From positions 3,203,313-3,267,312 of the forward strand of contig OX422186.1 in assembly GCA_949130485.1 (NCBI GenBank): a DNA stretch of 64,000 bases, in the 5' to 3' direction. This stretch comes from Agelas oroides. Its lineage: Eukaryota; Porifera; Demospongiae; Agelasida; Agelasidae. Shown here piece after piece: positions 1,439 through 62,364 of the stretch. A program made the position numbers and the translations under genes. The notes under the pieces are model-generated. The model saw only the letters and a list, made by a program, of their open reading frames with translations. It was not told the origin of the DNA and made no database searches. Numbering within the stretch: the stretch's first letter is position 1; each line of letters opens with the position of its first letter.

Positions 1439-2736
1439 CTATTGTAAGAAGTAGACTTCAGTAGTTTCACTGTGTACGTAATTGCCGCTAAACTGCACCC
1501 CCAATGAACTAAACATGGTCTTAGTTCTTTTCTGGTTAGAGCAAGACACAAATTGATGTTTGTAAGCATTCTATATTTCATTGAAGTTTTAAGTATACAC
1601 AGAGGTGTATTTTCTGCTGTGCATTATGTAAAAAGCAATGGAAAGAAGTGTATTAAAGTGAAATTGCTGATAGTACACTAGTGAGACTGGGAAAAAAACT
1701 TAACTTAGCCTCCTTGTGATGGCAAAAACATCAGTTTGTACCCTTAGTTTGTCTGCTCCTGTTTTATCTACTCTTGTTTTGTCAATTCAATTTCTTGAAG
1801 GAATACTCTTAAGTTAGGTAAAACAAAGTTTAATAACAAATACTACAAAGAAGCAAAAGGAAGGGAAAAATATTGAGTAGGCAAAACAGCAGTGGACAAA
1901 ACAGGAGCAAAAGTTCCAGTGCAGAGTACAGTCATTAAGGTATAGTAGTCATGCTTGCTAAAAGTGCTGTACTGTGCTGGAATATGTTTCTGGAAATGAA
2001 CATTGTATGTCCAAATATCAATTTCAAATTTAGCTTTTTCAGGGAATTTGAAGCGCTTTGTAAGTGGGTTGTCAACCGTTACAAGAGTAAAGTAAACTTG
2101 TGGCTCTTGAGACTGCCTGACAGTCACATTTACTATAAGTGTCCATTTCCTTCTACAACCTGCAGCAAAGCGCCAATATACACAAATATCACAGTAAGGC
2201 TTCAAATTAAGTGGGTGATTAGCCTAGAATGGGTGTACTATGATACAATTCAACCAAGTGGTGCGCAGGTGTTTCCAAGTGGTATACCAGACAAAGCAGG
2301 TAAACACAGTCCCCCGACAGTATAAACTAGCAATACCAACAGCATCAGTATGATATTGTCAATCCAGTTTGCATAGGGGGAAAATGAATAGAAAAAAGCA
2401 TGCGTGCTCACTTGTTTTAGAGTTTCTGGGTACAGTGACCAGTTCAGATCAATCTTCCAACAGTTCTCCAGCCTATGCCTTGTTTCCTTCATCTTGCTCC
2501 ATGTTTCAGGACTTACAGCCATTGCCACGTAATTTGACAGTGACACTGCTGTCTAACTGAACTGAGTCTGAGAAAGCACATGGTGCAGCTGGCTTTTATT
2601 TGATAACAGTGGTGAACGCCCATGTGCACTGCATGCTGATATCATGCAGGATGATGTAATGTATCTAGCTAATTCTGGTGGTACTTTTCACTTTGCACAT
2701 GTACATAAGCATTCAGTGTAGTATAATGTTATCAGG
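1439..2736. other. stretch without a recognisable gene
   Basis: This lies between the divergent DUF3987-like and KDZ genes. Short minus-strand frames at 1843-2205 and 2250-2546 show no domain I recognise; the latter has one hydrophobic run that could be a membrane segment. Upstream exons of either gene and a shared promoter could lie here, but I see nothing decisive. Confidence 0.4.
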
Positions 2737-4867
2737 ATGCTGCAAGAAGCTAGTGCTATATGCAGTGATGCATCTGTTCTAAGAAGACTCTCCTTTGCTG
2801 CAGTCACTCTACATAGGGATACTCCAAGGTACTGGGAGTTAGTTGCTAGTTTTGGTTTCTTGAAGTCATCAGGCTGTGTAATTCCATCAAGTGAGAAGAT
2901 CAAGGTTCTGTTAGAAAATGTTAAATATTTGGATGAGGATGCTTTTGATACTGACAGTAACCTCCTAAAAGAGTTGATACAACATGAAGGCTTTCAAGGA
3001 AAGTTGCTTGGGATCGTACTCATATCAGGTAACCACAAATGCAAGCTTTGTGGAGGAAACTTACTGGTACGAGCAGCTAGGCCAAGTTTTCCAGTGGTTT
3101 ACAGCAATGACCTTGGAACTGTAACTGGTACACACTTCCGTAAATACTGTCAAAACAATTGGAAAGGTTGTCCATTCACACAGCACTATGGATTTCACAC
3201 AAAAGGCAATGAGTCAGAAGCAGTATACGATGACGACTTTTCACAGCTTCCGTATTTCGTCTCATCACACATGACCGTGTTCCAAACAAAGCTGCTGTGC
3301 CACCTTACTGCTGAGATGTTACTGGGACAAATCTCATACCGACAGAGATCTGACATCTTCAACTATGTTCATGGATGCGATTCGGCAAAAAAGCAGAACA
3401 CGCAGGCTATTCCACGTGAATGTGACGTGAAAGGCACCAGTTTCAACAGGTATACATATACATATCTAATCTTTTAATGCTACCCTATGGTAATCCCTCC
3501 TACATACACGGTACACTGTTTCAAAATTCTTTGTCACATAAAAGATTACTCATACACATTTACCTGTATGTGACAGTAGGTAGTAGCCTCATTCCCAGGC
3601 TTCTCCCATTATTTGTTCTCCACTTTGCGCTCACACAATCACCACTCTTCAACTCCCTGTGATTTACTGAATGCAAACCAAAGAACCAAAAAAAAAAAAA
3701 ACAGGGAAGTTCTGGGAATGAGGCTAAGTAGGTAGCCAGTAACACCTTTTTGTTCAACAGTGCAGATGAATGCATGGATCGTGGACAACTGGACAGACGA
3801 CGCCTTGAAGAGGCACACATGAGGTTTTGCATCCTGGATGTATTTAAGCGGTACCCGCAGACATTTCCTACCTGGACAATCACTTCCAATTTGCAGCAGA
3901 CCCTAGATGACATTACTCCTCTCAATTACAATGCATTTGCTACAAGATATGCAGGTTAGTTGACTACTGGTTATTAGGATAACTGTTGAGCTACAAGTGG
4001 TTACAACTACCAAATAATCAGATGGAATTGCATCAACACTATATTTCTAAGATATCCCGCTTGTATACTAAAATTGATAAATAAACGCTGGAAAATGCCT
4101 TTCAGTCAAAACATAGGCCAAGATTTCAAGTTGGTGATGAAGAAATGTCTCCTTCATTTACTGGAAAACTCCTATTTAGGACACAAAATTGTGTGTAGAG
4201 TCCTTTAGTTTAAGCTAAATTCTTGTATAATTGTGTTGTTTTCCTGTCATCCATCAGAGCATGAGTGTGGTTTTCCTGGGTGCCGAAATGTGCTTGTCAT
4301 TGATGGTAACATGAAGAACAGGCGTGACGTATGTGCTGCAAGTGAGGCTGGATTTACAGAGTACGAGGGATTGCCAGGAGTGATTAAGACTGGTTGTCAG
4401 CTATCACCTGGGTATCAGTCCAAATACTGCTACGAACATGCCCCAAGGATCAGCCCAAGGACATCTGGAGAAGACCAGACACTTGAGTGTGGTGGAGAAG
4501 GCATTGTGAGGCTAATCACTGCCAAGAAGCAGACTCGCAGTGAGACATATTATCAGGTACATGAAACACATATTTGTCTGTATATTATAGTGGTAGACAG
4601 TATTAAGTACCATCAACAAGTGTAACAGCATGATTTCTTTTAGGTTGCTTGGCTGGGACGGGAGGAACAGATGACTTGGCAGCCTGCATCGACACTACCA
4701 CAAGCACTAATTGATGAGTTTGAAAGTGTCATGGTTAGTACGGGAGCAATAATCACCGACACCAAGTTTGGTGTAGCCCACCACACACTTGTGGTAGGAA
4801 GATCCAGTGCTACAGATTCTTCGCCACCAAAGCGACTGAAGACAACTGCCCTAACTTCTGACCCAGG
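2737..4867 (+). CDS. KDZ-transposase gene, N-terminal exons: CxC5-like and CxC6-like cysteine clusters plus chromodomain-like tail
   Basis: Four exons join in phase: 2737-3449, 3761-3954, 4258-4556 and 4644-4867, all with GT-AG borders. The exact start is not known; an AG precedes 2736. Exon 1 has the cluster CKLCGG...RKYCQNNWKGCPF...HYGFHTKG, which resembles the CxC5 cluster found with KDZ transposases. Exon 3 has HECGFPGC...LVIDGNMKNRRDVC...GCQ...KYCYEHAP, like the CxC6 cluster. Exon 4 reads VAWLGREEQMTWQPASTLP, which matches the C-terminal half of a chromodomain. These clusters are thought to bind zinc and DNA, and chromodomains bind modified histones; the role here is inferred. The intron at 3450-3760 holds a MITE. 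The gene resumes at 9536, and at least one linking exon is not found, because exon 4 ends in phase 2 while 9536 needs a phase-1 partner. It could be an autonomous element or a domesticated host gene. Confidence 0.72.
3584..3726. mobile_element. 143-bp MITE, TAGCCTCATTCCCAG family, 9-bp TSD
   Basis: The terminal inverted repeats are TAGCCTCATTCCCAGGC on the left and TTCTGGGAATGAGGCTA on the right. The 9-bp target AGTAGGTAG is duplicated exactly at 3575-3583 and 3727-3735. It contains an A-run and no ORF, and sits in an intron of the KDZ gene. The 9-bp TSD suggests a Mutator-like mobiliser, but this is not proven. Confidence 0.85.
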
Positions 4868-5797
4868 GTATTGTCGTATAAAATAATTATACATTAGTCT
4901 GTGTAACTTATATACCGGTATATATATGATATACAAGTCTAAAGTGCACCCCAAGATGCACACAGAATCCAGAGTTTAGTGCTGCACACTTCAGAAATAG
5001 GATTCTGTGCTACTTAGCTAGAAAATTTTAAGCTTGTTTAAACAATATTCATTGCTACTTAGCTTAATAGCTTATGGCTTCTTCAAAACACATTTCACTC
5101 CCAATAGTCTCATTCCAAGACACAATTTTTGCACATGCCCTGTGGCCACATTGAAAAACAAGGTCTTGAACACCTTCACTAAGAAAACTGGAGCCTAAGT
5201 AAAAGTGTCATATGCAGGCAAGTTGATACACCAATGTGATTGCTTGTGGAAAGGTTCCAAATAACACCTGTGATTACTGACTGCCATATACCATCTGGTC
5301 CCAGTATTCCTAGTGAAAGTGTCCCGATCCTATTTTTCAATGAGAACGCAGGTCATGAATGACTGGGGATGAGACTACACTGTCAAGGGAGGAGCCAGAC
5401 ATCAACTTAGCTAATGTAAATAGCAAGGCCACCTTCACCTGCCACGTCCATTGTTACCCCAAAGCGTTGTAGCATACATGAAGCATGCAGTGAACCATGT
5501 TAAGTTAATAAGTTTCGTAGTGCAGCTTGCGGCTGGTGATTTTATGAATCCATTGTGTACAGATTGTATTACTTGGAACAATTATTTCTTATCTAAACGG
5601 AAATTTGTTCCTCAATTTGTCTAATCTTACTGTCTGACTAGCTGGCTTCTCTGACAGTTGATCACAGCTGCACATAGGCTACATAATGTTTGTTTTGCTG
5701 TACTCTTGCATTTGGCAGTGCTTGGTCTGTTGTCAAAATGCATTAAATACTGAATATGAACTTATTACAAGGACAGGTAATTGTTAACATCTTAATA
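4868..5797 (+). other. intron-like sequence of the KDZ gene, no gene seen
   Basis: No exon-like block, RNA gene or clear repeat was recognised. An unidentified linking exon of the KDZ gene would have to lie here or between 8.0 and 9.5 kb. Confidence 0.4.
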
Positions 5798-8048
5798 CAA
5801 TGGCAGTTATTCATTTATCGGAAATGATATACAGTCATGAGGGCAGGGCTCTAATTAGAGTATCGTCGCGAACGTGGTGAAGTGTTTACTCAAGGACAGC
5901 ATTGGCCATTGCTGTTTGAAGAGTCTCTGGCTTCCCGTAAGTACAGTGATGAATATCTGTGTTGCTCTAGGCTAGATCAGACTGAAAGAAACAGCAGTCT
6001 TTTGATGGTCTACACTCCGTAATTTACGGAGTGTAGACCATCAAAAGACTGCCTCTCAGGATAACTGTTGCATGCATGCGCTCGGCGGGTAGGTCGACAG
6101 ATGGCGCTCGTACGCCAGTTGTTTGCGTATATCGCTTATAAAAAGTAGATATTTGTGAAGTACAAAGTCTCTTCTACACAATCTGGCGCAAGTCCAGCTT
6201 GAATCGGTGCCTGGAGGAGAGAGCTGGTCTGTAGAAAAGACAGGAAGTAAGCGCCATGATAATTAGTGGCCAAATTCCACACTCCGTAGACTTTCGCTAC
6301 TGAAGGCAATTATCTGGGCCGCTGGCCCAACGACTGAAAAGGCCTCACTAAGGTGTTTGGTTCATGATATAATTCGGTAGGAAGAACCTACTGTCAAACT
6401 CTAGCAATGGAGTGTGCAGCAGGCATTTTTATGAATCCCACCACTACAGCTAGCTACACTGCACACAGGCGTCCAGGAAGGTCCTTAGTACACTGACAAC
6501 ACCAGTCTTGCAGGCCCGACCCACTTCCGCAAAAGAATGGTGAACTGCGTACATGTATACAAGCCGTGTCCTACCACACTGTACAGTGGGTACAATCACA
6601 TTGCAGTATTTTGTCACATGACGCATTACATGACTGTAGCAGTGTTGAAAATGGTGAAAGAGAGCTAGGGTATCTTTTCCGCTACTACAGAAGCTGTAGA
6701 AACACTTCTCGGGGAGCGTGCTTACTCCACAACGTAATTCAAGAGTGCATTATTTGAAATCTGGTTACGTCATCCAGCTAATTGCATTCCAGTAGGACAT
6801 GGCTTGTACACACAGTTCACCACACACTTCCCTTCTTTGCGGAAGTAGGCCTGCAAGACTAAGACAACACCATGTGCTAGAGATGAGTATGAGGATAGCG
6901 ATGAGCAGCAGTAGTGTTTGCAATGAAGTAAACACTGGCGTACTGTACATGGTAAAAACGATGAGGACTCATTGAGAAGGTAAGCTAGCTGGAGGAGTAG
7001 CTGAGCTGGCCACTCAAAATCAATTGGTAGTTTTTTGCATGTGATTTCCACACTAAACTACAATTTAGTTTGACGTGGCTTTACCATATACGCTAACATA
7101 GATATCTATCTATGACGCTAATGTTTACTTCATTGCAAACACTACTGCTGCTCATCGCTATCCTCATACTCATCTCTAGTACTAGTCTCGGTCCCAGACC
7201 CAAAACCAACCCCAGTGCGGATCGCTTTCAATATTGCACACATTATACTGGAAGCGATAGACATGTCGGATGAGGTTTGGGGGTGAGACTACTCTAGTAC
7301 ATGATGATGTCTGTGTACAGTGTAGCTAGCTGTAGTGGTGGGACACCCTTTACATCTCAAAATGGGGATTCATAAAAATGCCTGCTGCACACTCCATTGC
7401 TAGAGTTTGACAGTAGGTTCTTCCTACCGAATTATCTGATGAACCAAACACCTTAGTGAGGCCCTTTACAGAGTGTAGACCATCAAAACACTGCTGTTTC
7501 TTTCAGTCTGATCTACTACAGCAGCCTAGAGCAACACAGATATTCATCACTGCACTTACGGGAAGCCAGAGACTCTTCAAACAGCAACGCTGTCCTTGAG
7601 TAAACATAGTCTCGCAAGCCCGACCCACTTCCGCTAGAGAAGGGAGAGGGTCTGGTGAACAGCTTATACAAGCCTTGTCCCACCGCACTGTACAGTGGGT
7701 ACAATCAGATTGCAGTATTTTGTCACATGACGCATTACATCACTGTTTGAGTAGCATAGCAGTCTTCAAAACGGCAAACATGAGCTAGGGCATCTTTTCC
7801 GCGAAGCTGTAAAAACACTTCGACTATACTTCTCAGGGAGCGTGCTTACTCCGCAACAGGTAATTCAAGAGTGCATTATTTGAAATCTGGTTACGTCATC
7901 CAGCTAATTGCATTCCGTTGGGACACGGCTTGTATACGCAGACTAGAGTAAACACTTCACCGCGATCGCGACGATACTCTAATTAGAGCCCTGCCCTCAT
8001 GACTGTATATCTAATTATTCATTTCCGATAAATGAATAACTGCCATTG
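5798..8048. mobile_element. 2.25-kb composite foldback DNA transposon, non-coding
   Basis: The outer arms are inverted copies. Left 5798-5891 (CAATGGCAGTTATTCATTTA ... ATGAGGGCAGGGCTCTAATT ... AGTGTTTACT) pairs with right 7948-8048, with a small indel. Further inverted pairs are nested inside: about 5892-6000 with 7500-7605, 6340-6470 with 7325-7460, and 6890-6935 with 7118-7165. A 300-bp direct repeat lies at about 6505-6800 and 7615-7945. A short perfect hairpin around TACACTCCGTAA sits at 5997-6050. No ORF resembles a transposase, so it is non-autonomous. It lies in the large intron of the KDZ gene. Confidence 0.8.
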
Positions 8049-8416
8049 GTACATGGTTTGGCCAACCACACAGGATTTTTAAAGTTGGATCCACTTCATC
8101 AGACATTGCGTGCAATACAGAAAAGGACAAGACCAGACTCCATGACCGTACAGCAGGTGAAATTACATCAAAGAGAACTTCTATGTCTAAGTATATGTTA
8201 GATCCTTTTTCACATATACTGCAAAGCGGTGAAGCCACTAGTAGTATGTATGAAAGAGGATCTAACATTGTTCAACATCAACTTAGAAACCATTGTCCCT
8301 GTCCTTGTTAACTGAGTAATGGCCTCCTAGACCCTCCATGAGTCTCCATAATGAGGGAAGAAAAACCTGTTTCCATGGTGATGGCTACTAGAACTGTCTA
8401 GAGAGAGGCCTATAAT

Positions 8417-8910
8417 TAGCCTCATTCCCAGGCCTCGCCCCCTTTTTTTTTTTATTCGGTTTGCATCCAGTATAATACACGGAGGCGGAAGAGTGGCGAA
8501 AAATGGGGAAGGCCTGGGAACACTTATCACATGAATGACGTCAGGTGGATGTGAGGTGGACGTGGGGGGGTGGTGCCTGACTACAAGTATGTGTGCAATG
8601 AACCTGAGAGCAAGTTTCTTACCGGTCAAGCCGAGTACTCACGATCTTGTGAGCGTCTGGGGTTTTGCCTAGCGATGGAGCACTCGATGATGAAGTAAGT
8701 CTAGTATGTTTTGAATGCAGACCCCTTCCCCCATACGTCCACCTCACGTCATTCATGTGATAAGTATTCCCATGGGAATACTTATCACATGAATGACGTG
8801 AGGTGGACGTATGGGCAGGCATTCCCCGTTTTCACCTCTCTTCCACTTCCATGTATTCTACTGAACGCAAACCGAAGAACAAAAACAGGGGAGGCCTGGG
8901 AACGAGGCTA
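8417..8910. mobile_element. TAGCCTCATTCCCAG-family MITE with internal perfect palindrome
   Basis: The ends TAGCCTCATTCCCAGGCCTC and GGCCTGGGAACGAGGCTA are inverted. Candidate 9-bp TSDs GCCTATAAT (8408-8416) and GCTTATAAC (8911-8919) agree at seven of nine bases. Inside, 8730-8815 is an 86-bp perfect palindrome centred on CCCATGGG. No coding capacity is seen. Confidence 0.72.
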
Positions 8911-11639: not shown

Positions 11640-12930
11640 CAATACAGGATGTCCCAGGACATCTTGGACCTGGGACTCTGGGACCTTACACTGTCTCCAC
11701 GGCTGGGACATCCTGGGTTGTCCCATGCAGGATATCCCATACACTGCCTCCATGGCTTGGACATCCCAAGATGTCCCAGGATATCCCAGGACATCTAGGA
11801 CCTGGGACTCTGGGACCTTACACTGCCTCCACGGCTGGGACATGCTGGGTTGTCCCAGGATATCCCAGGGCATCTTGGACCTGGGACTCTGGGACCTTAC
11901 ACTGCCTTCATAGCTTGGACATGCTGGGTTGTCCCAGGATATCCCAGGACATGTTGGACCTGGGACTCTGGGACCTTACACTGCCTCCACGGCTGGGACA
12001 TCCTGGGTTGTCCCAGGATATCCCAGGACATCTTGGACCTGGGACTCTGGAACCTTACACTGCCTTCATGGCTTGGACATGCTGGGTTGTCCCAGGATAT
12101 CCCAGGACATGTTGGACCTGGGACTCTGGGACCTTACACTGCTTCCATGGCTTGGACATCCCAAGATGTCCCAGGATATCCCAGGACATGTTGGACCTGG
12201 GACTCTGGGACCTTACACTGCCTCCATGGCTGGGACATCCTGGGTTGTCCCAGGATATCCCAGGACATCTTGGACCTGGGACTCTGGGACCTTACACTGC
12301 CTCCATGGTTTGGACATCCCAAGATGTCCCAGGATATCCCAGGACATCTTGGACCTGGGACTCTGGGACCTTACACTGCCTCCACGGCTGGGACATGCTG
12401 GGTTGTCCCAGGATATCCCAGGACATCTTGGACCTGGGACTCTGGGACCTTACACTGCTTCCATGGCTTGGACATCCCAAGATGTCCCAGGATATCCCAG
12501 GACATCTTGGACCTGGGACCTTACACTGCCTCCACGGCTGGGACATCCTGGGTTGTCCCAGGATATCCCAGGACATCTTGGACCTGGGACCTTACACTGC
12601 CTCCACGGCTGGGATATGCTGGGTTGTCCCAGGATATCCCAGGACATCTTGGACCTGGGACTCTGGGACCTTACACTGCTTCCATGGCTTGGACATCCCA
12701 AGATGTCCCAGGATATCCCAGGACATCTTGGACCTGGGACCTTACACTGCCTCCACGGCTGGGACATCCTGGGTTGTCCCAGGATATCCCAGGACATCTT
12801 GGACCTGGGACCTTACACTGCCTCCACGGCTGGGATATGCTGGGTTGTCCCAGGATATCCCAGGACATCTTGGACCTGGGACTCTGGGACCTTACACTGC
12901 CTCCACGGCTGGGACATCCTAGGATGTAGT
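11640..12930. repeat. 79/69-bp minisatellite array
   Basis: About 16 tandem units occur. TATCCCAGGAC recurs at 11940, 12019 and 12098 with 79-bp spacing. A shorter 69-bp variant lacks the 10-bp block ACTCTGGGAC. Units alternate between types carrying CATCCTGGGTTGTCCC, CATGCTGGGTTGTCCC and CATCCCAAGATGTCCC. Each unit also contains short internal repeats of (T/A)TCCCAGGA. The unit is not a multiple of three and has almost no stop codons, so several frames on both strands stay open for hundreds of codons; these are not genes. It starts about 160 bp after the KDZ stop codon. Confidence 0.95.
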
Positions 12931-17555: not shown

Positions 17556-20500
17556 CTGACTGTCTTCAAGGATTTGCAGAGCTGGTAGAGTTCATACACA
17601 CCAGATGACCTGAGAACTTCAGTGTCAACACTAGAATGGCAAACAGTAGGAAGGATTAACTACCATTAAATTTTAAGTCATAGGCAGTGTACTTACTCCA
17701 ACTCCTTTAGGTGCAGCATATCCTTCAGTGCAACTCTCAGAGACTCACCAGCTTTCGTAGCTAAAGAGTTGCGCTGCATGCTAAAAGGATTTTTTCAAAA
17801 CAATAAATGGTATTGATAGGCCCATTCCTAGACTCCTCCTACAAAGGAGGGGGAGAGCCTGGAACATTTTATCATATGCATGATGTTAGTAGACACGAGA
17901 CAGACACAAAATAATTGTGCATGGGCATTCACGAAAGTTTCCCCACTTAGTTCAAAGCCAGTGATTGCAGCAAGAACATGTACACATAGCTACAATGGTA
18001 CAAAAACTGTGGGCTACATCAACCATAAATCACAAGGTAGGCTGGTGTAGTAAATTCTCAGTGTGTCAGACACGGCACCTAATAGGCTGAAGGTGAAGAA
18101 ATTTCATGATTTGTTGCATGTTGTAAGCTCATGAGTATCATTGACACCAACTCAAAAAATCTATGTGGGCAATTGCATATTGCTGAGTGCAAAGATGAAG
18201 GTAACACACTAAAGCGATAAAATGTACCCAAAAAGAAGACAGTAGTAGTCTTGAAAGCACTTACCTTGAATGCCTGGCTTAGTCCACCCCCGCAGGATAA
18301 AGTTGTGTCAACCCTTGACATCATGCATGTGATAAAATGTACTGGGATTTCCCCCTTCTTAGTAGGGAGAACCTGGAAATGCATTTCAATATCTAGTGTA
18401 CTTTGCACTGGAGAGTGTGATATCAAGCATACCCCCACTGTGGATAAGGAGTACAATGGTTGTACAAAGCACACAACTTCAGTGAGCAAATTTCCCTATT
18501 GCTGTGCTACAGAAAGAGTGGCAAACTACCTGATTGGGAGCAGAGATACACTAGTGAACGAGAGATTTAAACAATGGAAAATAAACTACCTTAGAACTTC
18601 CAACTGAGTCAACTTAGGCAACAACGGAGCCAACTCAAGAAACTCCTTCAATTGTAATCCACACCTGTCAATGCTGTAATCATGAAATAAAATGCAACCA
18701 TGTGGTATCCATTGAAATCATACCAGTAAGAGGTAAGTCTGGTGAACACACAACTGTCACTGCATAGGAGTACGGCATGTGCCACAGGCATGTCTAGTAC
18801 GTATACATGTTACAAAAGTGACAGTTTTGATCATTGGTTTCATGCTGAAGTGAAAACGTGATGCAACTTTCAAACTTCAGAGTATTTATTGACTACAGAA
18901 TATCCTCACATCAAAGAAGATAACATCGTAGCCTTCTCCATGAAGCAAGCCAGAGCTTTAGCTGCAGTCGGGTCATTGACCTTAGTTCCACTGAGACTAA
19001 AAGTGAATGCATAAGCACACATAAACTAACATTACCATAACAAATAATCTGAAACTTGCAACAAAAAATCACACATGTGGGTATCTCAAACTAATTTAAC
19101 AACATATGGCATTTTATCATAAAATATTCATGATGAATACTAGAGATAGCCAACGCATTTGACTAATATCTCCAACTGTAGAGAAAGTTGTTACATTACT
19201 AACCTTAGGCTTTTTATGTTGCAGAAAGTATTAGAATCAAGCTTTGCTAGAGTTTCAAAGCATTCCTGACCAATGTGGCAGGACTCAAAATCCAATTCTT
19301 CAACTTGTACTCCAGTGTTTGCAAGGATAAACACGATAGCTGAGGCATCAAATGGGTTAATGGTTTCCTTCTTGAAACACAGCACTCCGTTACAAGCAGA
19401 GACTAAAGTCTGACATGCAACTTTACTCCGAGACTCATATGTACAGTGAAGATGAAGAAGAGTGCATGGAGGAGCACCACTGATGATCGATTGAAAACAT
19501 TTAAGGGCACCATCAGTCCTGAGCTTTGTTAGCCCGCAGAAAAACTTGCACACAACATGCATGTGTGCTTTCTTGTGGTAGTTTGATACACGCTGGTACT
19601 GTTCCTCACCACCAAGGGTGGTCAAATAATACGCTGCAAGAAATTCTTGAAATGTCAAGTGAAGGAAGCTATATGTATTCACAGATCCATGCAGTATTAC
19701 TTGATGGTCAACTGTAATAAGTCCAAGAGATTTGTCCATTCCAGATTCAGAAGACTTTAGTGGGAAAAACATTTTCACTTCCTTGTGGAGAAATCCCTGT
19801 TTTTGCTTCTCAGTTGCATGTAAAGCTACTTTACAGATATTTAGAAACGTTTGGTAGTGGCCAGGGTTCAGGTCTTCAAAATGTTCGAGTACCACCAACT
19901 CTCCTTCAGACTTTCTCAATGTTCTAATTAAAGTTTGAAGAGTAAATTCATTGTAAATTTCTGTTTCAGTTTCTGGTAACTTTGAGCCCAATACACCAAA
20001 TAGAAAGGTGACAATTGCTGCATGTATAGGTAGATAACACATGTGCATCACATTTTGGTGATGCTCAAGGTACAGTTTCAGCTCTTGTACAATTTCCAGA
20101 TTCGAATGATAATAATCTGAAATAAAATCATAAATCTGAGCTTTAAGGAAACCTAGAACTTCAATGTTTCTTGCTGCATGTCTTCTGAACTTCTGAGATG
20201 CTGCTGGCCTAGATGCAACAACCACTACTGATTTGGGGAGAAAAGTTCCTCTGATAAGTTCATAAACAAAGTCCAGACGTCCTTTTGTTGTTGAGTATTC
20301 ATCCAGCCCATCCAATGCAAAGCATATCTCCTCACCACAAGTGCTTTGAATGTGTTGTCCAAGTTCTTGAACTTTGTCGTTAAAAACAAGAGACAGTAGT
20401 GTTTCTAGTGTGACTTCTGTTTCACTGGCAAGTTGACGCAGTGGCACCAGAATAAGCAATGACACTAGGCCATTCAAAATCTTTCCCTGAGCCCAGTCTC

Positions 20501-20812
20501 GGCTTACTTTGTTCATAAGAGTTGTTTTTCCCGACCCTGGCCTTCCTTCTAGCAGTATCCTTGATCCAGATGTAGCATTTTCAAAAATGCAGGAATAATC
20601 AATCCTATTCTTGCTCTTAACAATATCATCATCCACTGATCCTCGCACAGTGTGGCGGGAAAACTCATCTCCAAAGTCCAAAGGTTGATTTTCTAGTAAT
20701 GCCAAATTTATATAGTGTGATTTCCTTACAGGAGGCCAACAGTCTTCCCTTACTTCTGGACGATTACGGTAGACAAATCTCACAGTTTCAGCAAGTACTT
20801 GTACTAGATTTC
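17556..20812 (-). CDS. NLR receptor: NACHT exon plus four LRR exons
   Basis: The large exon 20812-19204 encodes a NACHT ATPase. Counting from the codon at 20783, Walker A (GRPGSGKTT) is at about residues 80-88, Walker B (CFALDGLDEY) at about 154-163, then VVVVASRP. A winged-helix-like FLHLTFQEFLAAYYL follows. The exon ends at AAG|gtt within an LRR. Four exons continue leftwards, all joined in phase 2: 18996-18910 (87 bp), 18673-18590 (84 bp), 17780-17697 (84 bp) and 17630-17556 (75 bp). They encode ribonuclease-inhibitor-type LRRs such as NSLATKAGESL and DRCGLQLKEFLELAPLL. The large exon opens at an acceptor in phase 1, so N-terminal exons lie upstream; the DEATH exon at 55.7 kb is phase-compatible. 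Sponges have large NLR families believed to sense microbial signals; that role is inferred here. The last exon is uncertain. Confidence 0.88.
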
Positions 20813-21189
20813 CTGTTAGTAAAACAGATTGCTTTATAATGTAAGGGGGTCAATTTAAAAATAAAACATTGCTTCCATGGTAACTATGAGTAAAGCCTGA
20901 GCCAGATATTGTATGATATTAACTATGTTGGTGATCGCAATGCACGTGGCTCAGATTTGAAAACAGGTATGAACAAATGCCATGTTTCAATAGGAGAGAG
21001 CAAGTTACAAACTTTTGGTCAAAATGGGAAGTTGCCTACACCATAATGTATTGTCTAATAAATTGGCATAGTAGAACATTCACAAGCCTTGCTAAAAAAA
21101 ATACAAAAATAATCGCTGCCAGAAGTCTTAGGTACCGAATAGTTCAAAGTGTTGAAAGAGATTTTACAGAGTTGATGTTGAAAGGACAT

Positions 21190-21265
21190 GATGCTCTAGC
21201 CAGGATTCAAACCTCGGCCTTCAGATGCTCTTACCAACTGAGCCACTTGAACTGTGGCATTGGAG
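21190..21265 (-). repeat. tRNA-derived SINE head
   Basis: On the minus strand it has a box A-like GTGGCTCAGTTGGTAAGAGC and a box B-like GGTTTGAATCC with tRNA-like spacing. The acceptor stem does not pair, so it is a tRNA-derived SINE or tRNA relic rather than a working tRNA gene. Confidence 0.6.
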
Positions 21266-28221: not shown

Positions 28222-28469
28222 ACAAGACAGAAGTTGTGGAGGTGACACAGATCTAGTGAAATGATGTCAACAGAATGAGGCTACGTTGAAATTGCTGTGG
28301 AGATCACCCGACAAGTATTTCTATACACGTCACAAGCTGCACATGATCTGCTGTCTATAACAACCGTTCCACATTGTACATGTATCTGTCTATTGTTCTC
28401 GAGAGCAAACCAACATCCTCACAGAGCACTTAAGTTTGCAACAAGTCTGCCATGCATGTACCCAGTAGT
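28222..28469. repeat. R2 repeat, left part (interrupted copy)
   Basis: Matches 48906-49170 throughout, for example GATCTGCTGTCTAT, CCACATTGTACATGTA and AAGTTTGCAACAAGTCTGCC. The right part resumes at 29733 after about 1.26 kb of unrelated sequence. About 43 bp (TAAGTTTGCAACAAG...CCCAGTAGTA) is present on both sides of the break. A poly-G run of about 20 precedes it at 28138. Confidence 0.7.
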
Positions 28470-28571
28470 AGTGTGTCGAGTGGGGGAGCACCAACACCGC
28501 TGGCACATCGATGTTCAAAAATTTCACACATACATAAAGTGTGAAGTTAAAACATAGAGGGAGATGGGGAT

Positions 28572-28693
28572 GGGGCATTTATGGCTTAAATGGATGGGGC
28601 ATTTATGGCTTAAATGGGTGGGGCATTTATGACTTAAATGGGTGTGGCATTTATGACTTAAATGGGTGGGGGCATTTATGGCTCAAATGGATG
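28572..28693. repeat. 24-bp tandem repeat, five units
   Basis: Five copies of GGGGCATTTATGGCTTAAAT plus GG(A/G)T follow head to tail with few substitutions; one unit is 25 bp. Confidence 0.85.
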
Positions 28694-28929
28694 GGGCGGT
28701 TAGTTACTGTTTTTGGGAGATATGCTCAAAAAAAAAAAAAGTACTGGTCTTCAGGGGAGTACCCTTTCCGGTCCTCACATGACCACGGGTTTCGGTCCCT
28801 TTGAACTCCCGACCCGTGGCCTACTACAGAAAGGGCGGGACCACTCCCCGCCTAAGGCTTGCTTTGAGTGAGGAGCCCAGCTCTCGGTTGGTATTCACAC
28901 GGCTAAGAATATTCTAATTACTAAGCAAA

Positions 28930-29130
28930 TTGGGGGTGGGGCTAAATGGGTGGAGTTATCACAACACTAACTAGGGGGATGGGCGAACCAACGTACCGTC
29001 TCTCCGCTGACTCGCTGTCGTTCCGTGCGTCTGGGAGGCTTGTTCGGCGGTAGGCGTTTCTGCACTGAAGACTCTTTCGCTGGACACTCGGGTCTGTGCT
29101 GTGGCGACTTTTTCGCGGTGAGTACTATAC
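28930..29130 (+). other. GC-rich block with possible 5' exon and splice donor
   Basis: A relatively GC-rich segment ends in TTTTTCGCG|GTGAGTAC, a strong donor-like sequence. The first part (GGGTGG...GGCGAACCAA...GGGAGGCTTG) is also found, diverged, at 52640-52770, so it belongs to a repeat. It might be the promoter or leader of an unrecognised element; no ORF supports that. Confidence 0.25.
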
Positions 29131-29328: not shown

Positions 29329-29630
29329 CTTTGAGGCTCACTCATATTGGCATTACGAGTGTGAGGCTCTCTCACACTTGACTAACCACTGTGAGGCTCT
29401 CTCACAGTTGCGCTATAGGTGTGAGGCACACTAGAATTAACATTTCGAGTGTGGGGCTCTCTCACACTTGATTTATCACTGTGAGGCTCACTCATAGTTA
29501 CGCTATGTGTTCGAGGCTCACTAAAATTAATATTATACTACTGTGAGGCTCACTCACAGTTACGCTACGGGTGTGAAGCTCATTCACACTTGAGTTACTA
29601 CTGTGAGGCTCACTCACTGTTATGTTACGA
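29329..29630. repeat. 30-bp tandem hairpin array, ten units
   Basis: Unit starts fall at 29329, 29359, 29389, 29419, 29449, 29479, 29509 (32 bp), 29541, 29571 and 29601. Most units carry a short stem-loop around GAGGCTC(T/A). One class reads GTGTGAG...CTCACAC and another CTGTGAG...CTCACAG, so the outer base pair is swapped as a pair. The roughly 11-nt tails after the stem vary. A partial eleventh unit follows. Not a CRISPR: the setting is eukaryotic and there are no long unique spacers. Confidence 0.85.
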
Positions 29631-29732
29631 GTGTGGAGATGGATAAAGACGGGGTCTTTTTGACTACAGCTGTCCTTCCTCTCGCAATTAAATACACTGT
29701 GGTAGCTAGGTGGAGATCCCCTGCGGACGGGG

Positions 29733-29825
29733 TTGCACCTAAGTTTGCAACAAGTCTGCCATGCTTGTACCCAGTAGTACATATTTTTCTATTGGCAATA
29801 GAAACCAACCACTTAAGTTTTATTA
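29733..29825. repeat. R2 repeat, right part (interrupted copy)
   Basis: Continues the R2 copy: AAGTTTGCAACAAGTCTGCC then TTTTTCTATTGGCAATAGAA and CCAACCACTTAA, as at 49134-49210. Confidence 0.65.
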
Positions 29826-38937: not shown

Positions 38938-39252
38938 TGGTGCTGCAAGCAGACTTATGTTGGACACATGCACATAATTGTTGGATTGTACCCACCTTTG
39001 TTCACTTGCATGGCTGCCGTTAAATCATTGTACTTGCAGCAGACTTGTGTCTTTTCATTATCTATTGCCCTCGGCATGTGCTCTTGTAATTTGTCTATGG
39101 AACTTTCTAGAACATTCCTCTTCTCCTATTTAAGTTTCTGTGATTGCCACTTGTCATTGTTCAGTTCTTTGATTGCCGTTTGCCATGAAGTGAATATATT
39201 TCCTACCCTGCTATGCGCATCGTCTGATTACTGTCCGAGAGAGAGCTCAACA
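38938..39252 (+). repeat. 5' LTR of BEL/Pao element
   Basis: 315 bp, TG...CA ends. Contains TATTTAAG, which could serve as a TATA-like box, near 39127. Compared with the 3' LTR it differs at four sites noticed by eye (GGCTGCC/GGTTGCC, CTCGGC/CTCGTC, GATTAC/GACTAC, GAGAGAG/GAGATAG). Confidence 0.92.
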
Positions 39253-39256
39253 TTTA

Positions 39257-39273
39257 TGGTCCTTCGAGCCGGA
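39257..39273 (+). other. primer-binding site, tRNA-Tyr
   Basis: TGGTCCTTCGAGCCGGA is complementary to the conserved 3' end of animal tRNA-Tyr including CCA. It lies 4 bp after the 5' LTR, the usual place for the minus-strand primer. Confidence 0.8.
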
Positions 39274-39369
39274 TACTTTCCGAACTGCAAGTCTGTTCTA
39301 CTGGTTCTCTCTTGGATTGTCGCCTACATTCTACACACCATCGCCGCATGCAACGCACTGATGTTCACT

Positions 39370-39459
39370 GACTCTCTCCTCAAAGTTGCCTGTCAACAAT
39401 GAGCGAAACTGGCTTTTGATTCTCTCCTCAAAGTTGCCTGTCAACCATGAGCGAAACTG
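39370..39459 (+). repeat. 48-bp tandem duplication of the leader and start codon
   Basis: CTCTCCTCAAAGTTGCCTGT ... ATGAGCGAAACTG occurs twice, 48 bp apart. The first ATG (39399) is in frame with the gag-pol ATG (39447) but is closed by TGA at 39417, leaving a six-codon upstream ORF. Confidence 0.85.
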
Positions 39460-42400
39460 ACCAGCCAACACTTGCTACTCTAAGAAAGAGAAGAGGCGTC
39501 AGCAAGGCCTCTATAACCCGCCTGAACACTCGACTGAAAGACCTTGAGAGTAGGATTCACGAACCTACAACCTCGAGCCTTGCCCAACGGATGTCACAAA
39601 TGCTGGACAATCTCGATGCGGACTTCAAGAAGCATCACTATGCCGTTATTGACCGTATTGACGAAGCTGAAGTGGAAGCTCTCAGCAGAGAGCAAGACGC
39701 ACTCGACCAACATGATGATGGTATATCAGATCTTGCTATGCGAATTGAGCAAGTCATGGGAGCCTGCAGCTTGACTTCAGGCCATGGTGCAAGAAAAATT
39801 GTATTGCGCAGACTGTCCTATCTGAAGAATAACCTCTCAGCAGTCAGCACTGCAGTCCATGCGCTAACAGCAGAATCAGCAGAACTCCACCTGCTGCACC
39901 AATATCAAGAGCAGCTATCTGACTTCAAGAAAGAGCTTGGAGACGTTCGCCAAACTCTCTTATCCCTTGGAGTAGAAGAAGGAGATGAGCTTGAAACATC
40001 TACAAATGCCATCAACAAAGTTCTCTTTGACTGCAGCCTGCAACTCAAGAAGCTGTTATTCACTCTCCCAAATCCAATCTCTGATCCATTAATGGAATCA
40101 TCTGCTACAATGGCAACGGGAGTCAAACTACCAAAAATCGATGTTCCCACCTTTGATGGCAACATCCTCAACTGGCAAATGTTCTGGGAGCAGTTCAGTA
40201 TTGCCATTCATGAACGTTCAAGCCTTTCAGACACTGAGAAGTTGGTGTATCTCCATCACTCACTCAAGGATAGTGCAGCAAAGAAAGTTATTGAAGGCCT
40301 GTCTCGGTCTGGAGACCAATATGCCGAAGCAATCATGTGTTTGCAGTCACGCTATGATCGTCCCAGGCTAATCCACCAGACTCATGTCAAGAAGATTGTT
40401 GAAATTGCCCCCTTAAAGGAGGGTTCTGGAAAGGAGCTCCGCTATCTGCATGATACTGCACAACAACACCTTAGAGCTCTTAAAGCCATGGGACAAGAAC
40501 CGTCTGGATCATTTATTACATCTCTGCTGGAGTTGAAGCTTGATCAGAACACCATGTTTGAGTGGCAGAAGTGCAGCCAAGAGTCCTCAGAGGTCCCTCA
40601 CTACAAAGACCTCCTGGGATTTATCAACCTCAGAGCACAAGCGTCTGAATTTGTTTCCTCTGAAACAAAGAAGTTCATTCATACGGAGCGTCACTTACCC
40701 AGACGAGTTCCACCAAGTAAACCTGGTCCAATAGTATCCTTTGCAACAAGTGCAAGCAATACTAATAATTGTGCTCTGTGTAAGAATGAGAAACACCCTC
40801 TGTATGTCTGCACTCGCTTTAAATCCCTTCCTCGAGACAAGATGATGTCCACAATCAAGTCAAATGAGCTCTGTCTCAATTGCCTTCGACCAGGTCACTT
40901 CTCCAAGCAGTGTCCTAGCCTCAACCGGTGCAAGAAATGCCAGAAACCTCACCACACTCTCATCCATGATGACAGCAAGGAAACTCTCCCAAGTCAGTCT
41001 GACAAAACTCTCACTTCATCCACCTCCTCAATTGAGCCTACGGTTCTCAGTCATACAGTGGCTGGAGTCACCTCCAACACTCTACTGATGACCTGTCAAG
41101 TCCTAGTCAAGGCTCCTGACAACTCCTCAGTCAAGGCTCGTGCATTACTTGATTCAGCATCATCCACATCATTTGTTTCCGAGCGTCTAGCTCAGAGTCT
41201 ATGTTTGCCTCACTTCCATCACAACATTAGAATTTCTGGTATTGCTGGACTATCACATCAATCTCCACTCCAATCTGTTGCCACATTTAACGTGTCTCCT
41301 GTCCACACCGCTGCAAAGAGTCTCTCTGTATCTGCCATTGTCGTTCCTCGAGTCACATGTGATCTCCCCGTCCAACCCGTCCATTTTGATTCGCAATGGA
41401 CTCACCTCAAGGATTTGAAGCTAGCAGATCCAGACTTTGGACGTCCTGGAAAGATAGACATACTACTGGGAATTGATGTCTACACCGATGTATTGTTGCA
41501 TGGCCGGCGGTCTGGACCACCTGGTTCTCCAATTGCCTTTGAAACCATATTTGGCTGGGTCCTAGCAGGAAGGACCAGCTTACACACTTCTGTCTGCCTC
41601 TCAATCGCCACCCATCATGTCTCTGTCACTTCAGCTGATGACTTACTCAGGAAGTTGTGGGAAATTGAAGAAAGCCCTAAAGGTCCCTCCAACCTGTCTC
41701 CAGATGAATGCCTTGTGGTCCAACACTTCAAGGACGCACACACCCGCTCAGACGAAGGCCGGTTCATTGTGCCTCTACCAAAGAGACCTCAATCCAAATC
41801 ACTTGGAGAGTCGAGATCTCAGGCTGTGAAACGATTTCTATCACTAGAACGTTCACTGTACTCGAAAGGTCAATTCCAAGAATTCTCCACTGTAATGGAG
41901 GAATACTTCAAGATGAATCATGCTGAGCTAGTTCCTGTGGCTGATCTTCAGAGACCTCCCAAAGAAATTTTCTACCTCCCTATGCATGCTGTCAGGAAAG
42001 AACACAGCTCCACCACTAAGCTCAGAGTTGTATTTGATGCTTCTGCTAAATCTGCTAGTGGTATCTCATTGAATGATCTCCTGCTAGTCGGACCGACCGT
42101 TCACTCCCCTCTCATTGATGTTCTCCTAAGGTTCAGGCTCCACCGTGTCGCTCTCACTGCTGATGTCAGCAAAATGTACCGTGCAATTGAGCTTGTTCCT
42201 TCTGACCGTGACCTTCACAGATTTGTATGGAGAAGGACCCCTGAGGAACCACTCCAAGACTACCGCATGACCAGAGTTACCTTTGGAATCTCTGCATCCT
42301 CCTTTGCCGCAAACATGTCTCTTAAGCAGAATGCTCTCGACTTTGCTGTTGACTACCCTCAAGCTGCCAAAGTTGTTGAAGATTCTTTCTATGTTGATGA

Positions 42401-44984
42401 TGGCCTCACTGGTGCAGACTCCATACAAGATGCCATTGAGTTGCGAAAACAGCTCCAAGAGCTTTTTACGAAAGGTGGTTTTCTCCTGAGGAAATGGAAT
42501 TCCAGCGAGCCAGCAGTACTGGACCATATCCCTGCTGATCTTAAAGAGTTCAATCCAACCCAGCAATTACCCGATCCTGACCGGTACACAAAGACCCTTG
42601 GCATTGAATGGAATGCCAGGCAAGATCACTTTCGCCTTACAGTTGCTGAATTACCTCCCATTACCAATATCACCAAGCGAGCACTTGTCTCTGACATTGC
42701 TAAGACCTATGATGTCCTTGGTTGGTTCTCTCCCGCAATCATCAAGGTCAAGATACTCCTACAGCAGCTCTGGGAACAGAAAGTTGGCTGGGATGACCCC
42801 GTACCACGATCTATCTTGGATGTCTGGCTACAATGGCGCTCTGAGCTACATTTCCTCACACACAAGCACATCCCTCGATGTTACGTTGACAAGAAGTTTC
42901 GAATCACCTCAATGCAACTCCATGGATTCAGTGATGCCTCTGAGCGAGCCTATGGGGCAGTCATCTACATCAGAATGACTGACTCTTCTGATGATGTTCA
43001 AACTTGTTTGGTGACCTCCAAGACCAAAGTAGCTCCCATCAAGCGATTGACTATTCCCCGACTTGAACTCTGTGGTGCCTACCTGCTAGCACAGCTGCTC
43101 CACCATGTTCGCCAAGTGTTCCAATTACCCCTCAGCTCCATCTACGCCTGGACTGATAGCACTATTGTCCTCAACTGGCTCATTGGGAATTCAAGAAGGT
43201 TCAAAACCTACGTTGGAAATAGAGTCTCCTACATTGCTGATCTCATCAGTCCAGAAAGATGGAACCATGTCAATGGTGCTGAAAATCCAGCTGACTCAGC
43301 ATCCAGAGGCCTCTTCCCTTCAGAACTACTGGAGTGTTCACTATGGTGGAATGGCCCTATATGGCTCAAATTGTCACCTGCTGACTGGCCTAAACAATCA
43401 ATACTGCCCCCAAATGACACTCATGAAGAAGAAAGAGAAATCGCACTTCATTTAATCTCTCAACCTTGTTCTCCTGTGATTCCATTTGAACAGTATTCAG
43501 ACTTCAACCATCTCAAACGCATAACAGCCTGGATTCTTCGGTTCACCAAGAACTGTCACTCTGGAACACAGAAACACCTCACTCCCTTGCTTTCCACCGA
43601 AGAATTGCATGAAGCAGAATACTATTGGATCTCCATCATCCAAAATGACCATTTCCAGAATGAAATTCAAACCCTGAAGCAGGAACGTCTATTGAAGAAA
43701 TCCAGTCCTTTACTACCACTCCATCCCTTCCTGGATTCCAACAAATTGCTACGCGTTGGTGGCAGACAGCAGAATTCCAAGCTTTCTTACTCGAATCAGC
43801 ACCCCCTGATTCTACATGGAAAACACCCCGTGACCAAACTAATCATTCACTCTGAACATCAACGCCTCCTACATGCTGGGCCCACTCTCCTCACTGCCTC
43901 ACTATGTCGTCACTATCACATCACAGGATGTCGGAAGACTATCCGTTCCATCACTCGTGGATGTATCACCTGCCGACGCACCTCTGCTCGACCACAACCT
44001 CAAATGCTGGGCCAACTACCCATTGAAAGGATCACTCCCGGACCGGTGTTCAATCAAACTGGAGTAGACTATGCTGGTCCTGTCTACATCAAATATGGTT
44101 ATGTCCGCAAGCCCACTGTGATCAAAGCCTATGTATGTGTATTCGTTTCACTCTCTGTTAAAGCCGTCCACTTGGAACTTGTTTCTGACCTCACCTCTGA
44201 GGCATTCATAGCCACTCTCAGAAGGTTCATTTCTCGCCGTGGCAAGCCCTCACTCATTTGGAGTGACAATGGAACGAATTTTGTTGGTGCTTCCCGAGAG
44301 CTTCAAGAACTAGCTGATTTTCTCGAAAGACAAAAAACACAGCAAGAGATATCACGATTCTGCTCTAACCAGCATATCAAGTGGAAGTTCATTCCTGAGC
44401 GTGCTCCTCACTTTGGCGGCCTTTGGGAAGCTGCTGTCAAAAGCATGAAGATCTGCCTTAGGCGTACTGTATCTTCCCACAAGCTAACTTTCGAAGAATT
44501 CACTACCATACTCACGCAGATCGAATCCTGTCTAAACAGTCGCCCTCTGGTACCACTTCAGTATGATGAAGACGGCATCGAAGCCCTCACACCTGGTCAT
44601 TTCCTCATTGGCAAACCACCAGAATCTATTCCAGATCCTGCTTTTTCTTATCGTACTCTATCTCTACTACGGCGCTGGCACTTATGTCAAGCTCTTGTTC
44701 GCCACTTCTGGCAAAGATGGTCTACAGAATACATCTCCTCACTCAGACGCTACACCAAATGGCACCATCCCACTAGAAATGTCCAAGTTGGAGATGTCGT
44801 TATCCTCAAAGAAGACAATATGGTTCCCACTAAGTGGCCACTTGCCAAGGTTATTCAAACACATACTGGAAAGGACGGATTAGTCAGAGTGGTCACTATT
44901 AAGACTGCCACCGGAACCTACAAGAGGCCTGTGATTAAAATCGCTCTACTCCTTCCCTCAGACTCTCCTCCTAATGTTACTTAA
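39447..44984 (+). CDS. BEL/Pao gag-pol polyprotein
   Basis: A 1845-residue uninterrupted frame. In order: coiled-coil-like gag; DUF1759-type segment (KIDVPTFDGNILNW) near 230-370; CCHC zinc knuckle (CLNCLRPGHFSKQC) near 475; DUF1758-type aspartic protease with DSASSTSF near 567; reverse transcriptase with VVFDASAKS near 860 and SFYVDDGLTG near 980; RNase H-like Pao segment (GFSDASERAYGAVIY) near 1160; integrase zinc-binding segment with CRHYHITG...CITCRR near 1485-1510; integrase core with VDYAGPV, WSDNGTNFVG and HFGGLWEAAVKS (DDE residues); and a DUF5641-like tail ending near 1835. Product makes and integrates element cDNA. I chose the ATG at 39447 because the earlier in-frame ATG is blocked by a stop. 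No frameshift or missing motif was seen. Confidence 0.95.
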   Translation: MSETDQPTLATLRKRRGVSKASITRLNTRLKDLESRIHEPTTSSLAQRMSQMLDNLDADFKKHHYAVIDRIDEAEVEALSREQDALDQHDDGISDLAMRIEQVMGACSLTSGHGARKIVLRRLSYLKNNLSAVSTAVHALTAESAELHLLHQYQEQLSDFKKELGDVRQTLLSLGVEEGDELETSTNAINKVLFDCSLQLKKLLFTLPNPISDPLMESSATMATGVKLPKIDVPTFDGNILNWQMFWEQFSIAIHERSSLSDTEKLVYLHHSLKDSAAKKVIEGLSRSGDQYAEAIMCLQSRYDRPRLIHQTHVKKIVEIAPLKEGSGKELRYLHDTAQQHLRALKAMGQEPSGSFITSLLELKLDQNTMFEWQKCSQESSEVPHYKDLLGFINLRAQASEFVSSETKKFIHTERHLPRRVPPSKPGPIVSFATSASNTNNCALCKNEKHPLYVCTRFKSLPRDKMMSTIKSNELCLNCLRPGHFSKQCPSLNRCKKCQKPHHTLIHDDSKETLPSQSDKTLTSSTSSIEPTVLSHTVAGVTSNTLLMTCQVLVKAPDNSSVKARALLDSASSTSFVSERLAQSLCLPHFHHNIRISGIAGLSHQSPLQSVATFNVSPVHTAAKSLSVSAIVVPRVTCDLPVQPVHFDSQWTHLKDLKLADPDFGRPGKIDILLGIDVYTDVLLHGRRSGPPGSPIAFETIFGWVLAGRTSLHTSVCLSIATHHVSVTSADDLLRKLWEIEESPKGPSNLSPDECLVVQHFKDAHTRSDEGRFIVPLPKRPQSKSLGESRSQAVKRFLSLERSLYSKGQFQEFSTVMEEYFKMNHAELVPVADLQRPPKEIFYLPMHAVRKEHSSTTKLRVVFDASAKSASGISLNDLLLVGPTVHSPLIDVLLRFRLHRVALTADVSKMYRAIELVPSDRDLHRFVWRRTPEEPLQDYRMTRVTFGISASSFAANMSLKQNALDFAVDYPQAAKVVEDSFYVDDGLTGADSIQDAIELRKQLQELFTKGGFLLRKWNSSEPAVLDHIPADLKEFNPTQQLPDPDRYTKTLGIEWNARQDHFRLTVAELPPITNITKRALVSDIAKTYDVLGWFSPAIIKVKILLQQLWEQKVGWDDPVPRSILDVWLQWRSELHFLTHKHIPRCYVDKKFRITSMQLHGFSDASERAYGAVIYIRMTDSSDDVQTCLVTSKTKVAPIKRLTIPRLELCGAYLLAQLLHHVRQVFQLPLSSIYAWTDSTIVLNWLIGNSRRFKTYVGNRVSYIADLISPERWNHVNGAENPADSASRGLFPSELLECSLWWNGPIWLKLSPADWPKQSILPPNDTHEEEREIALHLISQPCSPVIPFEQYSDFNHLKRITAWILRFTKNCHSGTQKHLTPLLSTEELHEAEYYWISIIQNDHFQNEIQTLKQERLLKKSSPLLPLHPFLDSNKLLRVGGRQQNSKLSYSNQHPLILHGKHPVTKLIIHSEHQRLLHAGPTLLTASLCRHYHITGCRKTIRSITRGCITCRRTSARPQPQMLGQLPIERITPGPVFNQTGVDYAGPVYIKYGYVRKPTVIKAYVCVFVSLSVKAVHLELVSDLTSEAFIATLRRFISRRGKPSLIWSDNGTNFVGASRELQELADFLERQKTQQEISRFCSNQHIKWKFIPERAPHFGGLWEAAVKSMKICLRRTVSSHKLTFEEFTTILTQIESCLNSRPLVPLQYDEDGIEALTPGHFLIGKPPESIPDPAFSYRTLSLLRRWHLCQALVRHFWQRWSTEYISSLRRYTKWHHPTRNVQVGDVVILKEDNMVPTKWPLAKVIQTHTGKDGLVRVVTIKTATGTYKRPVIKIALLLPSDSPPNVT

Positions 44985-45009
44985 GACCATCCGGTCTTGG
45001 CCGGCGGTA

Positions 45010-45324
45010 TGGTGCTGCAAGCAGACTTATGTTGGACACATGCACATAATTGTTGGATTGTACCCACCTTTGTTCACTTGCATGGTTGCCGTTAAATCAT
45101 TGTACTTGCAGCAGACTTGTGTCTTTTCATTATCTATTGCCCTCGTCATGTGCTCTTGTAATTTGTCTATGGAACTTTCTAGAACATTCCTCTTCTCCTA
45201 TTTAAGTTTCTGTGATTGCCACTTGTCATTGTTCAGTTCTTTGATTGCCGTTTGCCATGAAGTGAATATATTTCCTACCCTGCTATGCGCATCGTCTGAC
45301 TACTGTCCGAGAGATAGCTCAACA
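45010..45324 (+). repeat. 3' LTR of BEL/Pao element
   Basis: Nearly identical to 38938-39252. It follows GGCCGGCGGTA 25 bp after the polyprotein stop, which probably marks the plus-strand primer end. GTTTG follows at 45325. Confidence 0.92.
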
Positions 45325-54517: not shown

Positions 54518-55723
54518 CAGAAGATAGACGATTTGCCTTTTTTAGCGACTTGATGTCAGGTGTACTTAGCGATGCTTTCCAGCAAATTTAACGATCCTGT
54601 TGCCCATGGAAGCACTCGATAATGTCTGATATGGCTCATGGAGGCTGTTGACTTATCTAACGCGGACATTTCGAGCGTGTCATTTGTGCACCTTGAATGT
54701 GGCCGCCATTTTTTTTCGGGGTCATCCCTACATATGGCGTACTACCGTACGCCATGATAGCTCATTGATAATACGTACTAACTTTTTAAACAGATTTACA
54801 GTAACCAAGCAAAAACTTTCCATGGTGGGTGGTTACATGGAGGACCTCACAAAGTCACAGAACTGTCAAAATTGGTGGGTCGGCACTTGCACAGAAATGG
54901 GAGCTTGCACAGGGTATTACAGTGTGATGGTTCCAAATTTCCTGAAATAATGCCAAACACTCATTGGCTTTTGAAGCAATATAGTCAAAAGAAATCCACC
55001 TCTTTGAGTGGGTCAAGCTAGAACTCCCAATTTTTCAATTGCAACACACACCAGTGCATGTCTTACCATATATGTTCAATATGCTCATTATGGATAGAAT
55101 CACAATTAAAGAAAGGATCATTGGTTACATTTTTATAAAACCAGGGCCTAGATATATACAAACCTACCACTATATTTATACGTATATCCAGAGTTTGTGT
55201 TTATAGCATTGTCCATCAGCTGGTAGACAAATGCTTGTGGTAGGTGAAAATGTCATTCCAGGGGAAAGTGCCCCTTGACCTAATGAATATGCACTCAGAT
55301 TAGATATCTAATGCACCGGCCAGTGTATTCACTTTCCTTTTAACCTTTACTTCACATCGTAGGCATTTTAAATTTTGTACTTAACTTTAACTAAGTGGTA
55401 TTGCACTATAATTCTTTATCTGTACACCTTGTTCTGTGGTGTGAATTATAATAATAATAATTAACATCTCACATCTTGGAGGGTACAATTCTATTTGTGC
55501 TGATACACTTTCCATAAAGATTTCAAACAAAAGAGGTAAAACTGTGCTTGCAGCCCGCATGGCGTAAGTTATATTACTAAACCACACGTACCTGATGTTT
55601 GGCATTTCTGCAAAGGCCGTGTGTATGCAATCCTTTTCTTTGTACTACTCATTACTCATCAATATAACACGTACTTTGGAAGTTAATTCACCAGTTAAAC
55701 AGCTTGGGTACAGACAAACCAAC
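54517..55723. other. stretch without a recognised gene
   Basis: No conserved frame was identified. If the DEATH exon has a nearer 3' partner exon than the NACHT exon, it should lie here on the minus strand; I did not find one. Confidence 0.35.
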
Positions 55724-62309: not shown

Positions 62310-62364
62310 CGTGCTTCTTCTCGATTCCTGAACTCGCTATTAGTTAACTGAAAGTTCAGACAGC

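Follow-up and report, generated by a model that had tools for sequence, protein, structure and literature searches.

We found that the 30-bp hairpin array at positions 29329 to 29630 of the window, meaning the whole 64,000-nucleotide stretch of Agelas oroides DNA analyzed here, is probably (roughly 0.6) a minisatellite inside a retroelement that has no coding capacity, is presumably non-autonomous, measures 2.0 to 2.4 kb per unit, and would form concatemers by way of minus-strand RNA. Most likely, this carrier is a non-coding retroelement that occurs in chains and has been active in recent times, and the paired base swaps in the stems of the array seem to go back to two old differences that copying has multiplied, rather than being repeated signs of a selected RNA fold. 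As a minisatellite, the window array is ordinary.

A first-pass annotation, which drew on the letters of the window alone, had placed the array inside a 1.26-kb insertion that might be a mobile element, and both suggestions held. The insertion is 1,264 bp long with exact limits at 28471 and 29734, and it is bounded by two copies of a 45-bp target-site duplication (28426 to 28470 on the left and 29735 to 29779 on the right), which form a direct repeat of 96% identity. Three paralogous sites (L029, L030, and L031) lack the insertion and carry the 45-bp sequence only once. The insertion site itself lies within a larger repeat that recurs every 4.5 to 4.7 kb or so. The inserted element is a single truncated unit, presumably on the minus strand, and it contains, besides the hairpin array, a second internal minisatellite found by tandem-repeat scan (28571 to 28697, 24-bp period, 5.2 copies); a run of 13 A on the plus strand (28728 to 28740), which would be a T run on the sense strand; and a GC-rich plus-strand block (28981 to 29130) that closes with GGTGAGT (29117), a donor-like site. 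The minus-strand remainder beyond the array (29631 to 29734) continues in longer copies with the part of the unit that the window copy is missing.

The annotation had also noted a strong splice donor just upstream of the array. The donor-like motif is indeed there, but splicing from it found no backing: its 26 matches represent 25 places (L015 and L040 overlap), of which 24 continue past the site with identical or almost identical sequence, while at L009 the sequence breaks four bases past the site without a donor-to-acceptor join. We therefore rejected splicing from this site, as no donor-to-acceptor loss was seen in the 25 places.

The element belongs to a dispersed family. DNA searches of the genome with four queries (the array, the 858 bp upstream of it, the tail of the unit, and the unit junction) all matched many places, and merging these matches, with those within 9 kb of each other joined, gave at least 88 distinct places, a lower bound since 40 candidates were scored per search. 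We studied 43 regions (L009 to L051, among which L015 and L040 overlap). The longer copies have a unit of 2.0 to 2.4 kb and are often chained head to tail; in L010, for example, the unit spans 3146 to 5137, and its tail, ..CAGAAGTT, runs directly into the next head, GTGTGTCG... This tail-to-head junction was present in 19 of the 40 family loci examined (17 of 38 rows, plus L049 and L050). L050 is one insertion (374 to 8668) of 3.67 units of 2,258 bp, in which the second, third, and partial units show no difference over their common length and the first has two, and L049 consists of stretches of 2,413 bp with 0 to 1 differences among them. Between the units of L049 and L050 there are 26 mismatches and 177 gap bases (98.8% identity outside gaps), so each insertion is uniform within and distinct from the other. 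Since L014 holds a second, more diverged element nested inside the first, neighboring units are not always the product of one event. A 274-bp stretch spanning the unit junction gave 19 full-score matches at 13 separate places when tandem neighbors were merged, which suggests recent activity. Inverted element segments, as in the 5' inversion of retroelements, were seen inside five copies (L009, L024, L037, L040, and L048). Satellite-like tandem repeats flank six others (L010, L018, L019, L021, L028, and L044), repeating every 144 bp or so in L010 and every 72 bp or so in L021, and the element may thus favor such blocks or survive there.

The two ends of the element behave differently. On the plus strand, the left end has one fixed start, lying either in unrelated flanks or after a unit tail in chained units, whereas the right ends vary between copies among the rows listed; L042 and L043 share a right end but look like copies of one site. 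A fixed left end combined with ragged right ends most likely marks a retroelement of the minus strand whose 3' end is constant and whose 5' end is truncated. The sense strand of the window element would accordingly be the minus strand, with its 3' end at 28471 and its ragged 5' end at 29734.

We compared 24 left flanks with the unit tail and counted 22, 22, 21, 20, 11, 18, 16, and 10 matches at positions -1 to -8, with background levels from -9 onward. For these counts we shifted the register of three rows by eye so that they end in GTT, and L050 is still out of register; before re-registering, the same 24 flanks gave 19, 19, 19, 18, 13, 16, 13, and 10. Heads that follow a unit tail, the same-flank twins L035, L036, and L042, and heads that were short or eroded (L025, L044, and one in L038) were left out. 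Such matching suggests that the target may prime by annealing to the RNA, although an AGTT belonging to the element's own end offers an alternative account of the first four matching flank bases. In the window copy, the flank bases CCCAGTAGTA predate the insertion according to the paralogous site, but an exact match is absent at the last base, so this copy fits target-RNA annealing only in part.

Of the 11 loci tested for a target duplication at their edges, one had it, so it is not a constant feature of the family. L027 showed a 9-base match (the cross-locus maximum being 8), but not at the edges, and L049 had no duplication beside the insert, with 749 bases between L049 and L051 unread. A looser scan of 32 loci returned the window copy, a 46-bp repeat in satellite DNA at L018, satellite matches, and weak off-edge matches.

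No coding capacity was apparent in the unit. The longest open reading frame in a doubled L050 unit is 122 aa, a length reached by 34.5% of 200 shuffles, and three L010 frames gave no Pfam match above the curated cut-off and one weak match below it. Rfam searches of ten loci and of a single unit including its junction found no hammerhead, and a core-pattern scan of the L050 unit returned only two matches, with the two motifs in the opposite order, which we judged by eye not to be ribozymes; a divergent ribozyme could escape both searches. In the window, the only Rfam match to reach the gathering score was a tRNA at 21192 to 21252. The ten loci gave 15 matches with E up to 1, all under the gathering score (microRNA, IMES-3, MAT2A_C, and RNAIII models), and one unit gave a single match under that score (MIR815). 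We rejected a known structured RNA or ribozyme in the element, as none of its matches reached the gathering score.

In the mechanism that we propose, minus-strand RNA longer than one unit would come either from transcription reading through a chained copy or from a circle. Reverse transcription would then be primed, always at one place on this RNA, by a nicked target with a 3' end similar to the sequence that precedes the start of the unit (..CAGAAGTT), presumably with a helper enzyme. Copying would stop at varying points, after anything from under one unit to almost four, leaving the fixed 3' end and the ragged 5' end. The array would gain or lose steps of 60, 90, or 150 bp by slippage or unequal exchange, through which whole-unit types would spread together with their paired differences. 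Lag identities do show amplified steps of 60 bp (L016, L036, L042, and L043), 90 bp (L033, L034, and L038), and 150 bp (L044, L049, and L050). The most specific version, in which a ribozyme-free non-coding retroelement would use multi-kilobase concatemeric or circular RNA, target annealing at one constant internal site (on the CAGAAGTT side of the junction), and the hairpin array as a signal for the helper enzyme, laying down up to nearly four near-identical units per event, strikes us as improbable in all its parts together. The element could serve to test how chained non-coding retroelements form without a known ribozyme.

The chains could also come from rolling-circle DNA copying, and a Helitron- or Helentron-type DNA element, which would start at the fixed plus-strand left end, go more than one lap around a circle, and stop at random, deserves consideration. 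Central minisatellites are known in the Helitron/Helentron group, and its non-autonomous derivatives share with our element both these and head-to-tail chains; the near-identical chained units of L049 and L050, the internal minisatellites, and the lack of an edge duplication in ten of 11 loci all agree with such an origin. However, Helitrons have 5' TC and 3' CTRR ends and are not known to make a target duplication, whereas the ends read here (GTGTGTCG.. and ..CAGAAGTT) carry neither terminus, the right ends are ragged among the rows listed, and the window copy has a 45-bp duplication that is single at the paralogous sites. We consider a Helitron-like element distinctly unlikely. Among retroelements, SVA likewise carries a variable tandem array (VNTR) inside a non-autonomous element, but our element differs from it in having no terminal poly(A) tract on the putative sense strand, in the hairpin form of its repeat units, and in the chaining of whole elements.

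The retroelement reading finds its closest parallels in Penelope-like elements (PLEs) and retrozymes. According to PMC11167929 and PMC3846280, PLEs occur as a full and a 5'-truncated unit in partial or full tandem, start reverse transcription internally on multi-unit RNA, and leave inconstant target duplications; PMC3846280 also infers that pLTR sequences sufficed to integrate in trans a structure with an unrelated gene. The arrangement of full and truncated tandem units (the pseudo-LTR) recurs in our family, as seen in the junction at 19 of 40 loci. Unlike in PLEs, however, no open frame for reverse transcriptase and GIY-YIG was found within the unit, where L050 frames are no longer than those of shuffles, nor was a hammerhead, and target-RNA matching seems to prime here, while the start site of an anole PLE is described in PMC11167929 as not homologous to the cut DNA. 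Metazoan retrozymes, which are non-LTR elements, also consist of non-coding tandem units, and in PMC7761336 their multi-unit cDNA is proposed to come from an RNA circle; their units measure about 150 to 300 bp and contain hammerhead ribozymes, in contrast to units of 2.0 to 2.4 kb here, with no hammerhead found in the ten loci, the junction unit, or the L050 scan. Since the element has no enzyme frame and no ribozyme was found in it, we file it neither as a PLE nor as a retrozyme despite the common anatomy. We recognized no paper describing the family in a literature search of open PMC papers.

Within the window, the array has ten units, as annotated, but the 30-bp period, which the annotation gave as exact in nine of the ten units, holds in eight of nine start-to-start spacings, and one spacing is 32 bp (29509 to 29541). 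Nor do two unit types simply alternate, since the strongest period by Tandem Repeats Finder score is 90 bp, a higher-order repeat. The hairpin stem itself is real: when the array was folded, as the annotation had proposed, the RNA z-score was -7.8 for the plus and -4.8 for the minus strand, and none of 100 shuffles per strand folded as well. Across extracted units, with repeated arrays included, the proposed axis gives a mean of 6.00 of seven Watson-Crick pairs, compared to at most 4.38 for axes shifted by 1 to 6. All seven pairs are kept in four of the ten window units and six or more in seven. The annotation was right that the units at 29419 and 29509 lose the stem, but its list was incomplete, as the unit at 29329 loses two pairs and that at 29601 loses one.

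To this stem the annotation had attached a stronger claim, namely that paired swaps point to selection on a fold or a binding palindrome. We cut 47 distinct arrays (557 units) by motif chain, oriented them by hand to the element, and counted the element strand only, with one array kept per identical set. All seven Watson-Crick pairs were present in 289 of the 557 units. At the outermost pair, 1-19, C-G (202) and G-C (185) are both common, in line with the swap as annotated, alongside G-T (103) and the broken forms G-G (12), C-C (9), and C-T (25); a both-side change at the innermost pair, 7-13, had been missed (G-C 428, A-T 87, G-T 23, and A-C 8). Both-side changes are common only at these two of the seven pairs and are also tied to unit types with different tails.

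Several results are in keeping with hairpins selected as folded RNA, for example as a helper-binding signal, or as paired protein sites, with the swaps being compensatory. Standard pairs exceed the expectation under independence at 1-19 (495 against 279 of 557 units), 3-17 (440 against 388), and 7-13 (539 against 469), while at the other four the count departs from it by no more than two units. Arrays of 17 units or more keep full stems more often than shorter ones (133 of 192 units against 156 of 365), and single differences between distinct units number 51 at the 14 stem sites, 63 at the 11 tail sites, and 9 at the five loop sites. However, when we compared 190 distinct 30-mers, pairs of units with exactly two differences, both in the stem, had them at pairing partners in 3 of 46 comparisons, with about 3.5 expected by chance. 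The annotation itself had named frequent one-sided stem changes in other copies as evidence against its reading, and such changes are common. Among 435 position pairs ranked by mutual information, 1-19 was 5th, 3-17 23rd, and 7-13 35th, but unpaired positions, 19-23 and 17-21 among them, ranked higher; the other four stem pairs fell below 320th, partly because there is little variation there. Inheritance of unit types as wholes gives unpaired positions just as much covariation, and it also explains why three pairs exceed independence. Units with broken outer pairs exist, and whole-unit spread accounts both for the recurrence of the paired state and for the stems that are kept. We therefore give little credence to compensatory selection.

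Both-side changes could also arise without selection if imperfect palindromes were repaired during DNA copying by template switching from one arm to the other, a mechanism described in PMC8794818, and the short arms and 5-base spacer would suit it. Few such events are needed here, though, no single event was traced, and the one-sided forms at 7-13 (G-T 23 and A-C 8 of 557) speak against it, although ordinary mutation also explains them; we regard template switching as unlikely. That the array encodes a ten-residue protein repeat is highly improbable. Thirty is divisible by three and frames stay open across several units, but spacings other than 30 in 19 of the 47 distinct arrays, including the window copy, break the frames, and open frames in the L050 unit match shuffle length. 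The spread of a few old differences by copying remains our preferred reading, and it carries a caution: both-side changes in tandem arrays can be few old events multiplied in this way and need not reflect a selected fold.

The window holds several other features. A 79-bp tandem array of 15.4 copies (11740 to 12927) has long open stretches in all three plus-strand frames. A frame with a NACHT domain (19191 to 20849) adjoins the tRNA match, which lies on the minus strand, and another at 55695 to 56063 matches the Death domain weakly, under the curated cut-off. At 59535 to 62336, a 933-aa frame of Copia type matches the gag, Pol_BBD, and RVT_2 models of Pfam but no integrase model. Finally, a BEL/Pao retrotransposon (38938 to 45309), identified by Pfam from a 1,854-aa open frame at 39420 to 44984, lies between 300-bp direct repeats that are 99% identical, and the open frames on either side of its long frame appear by eye to be putative integrase-like frames of another element.
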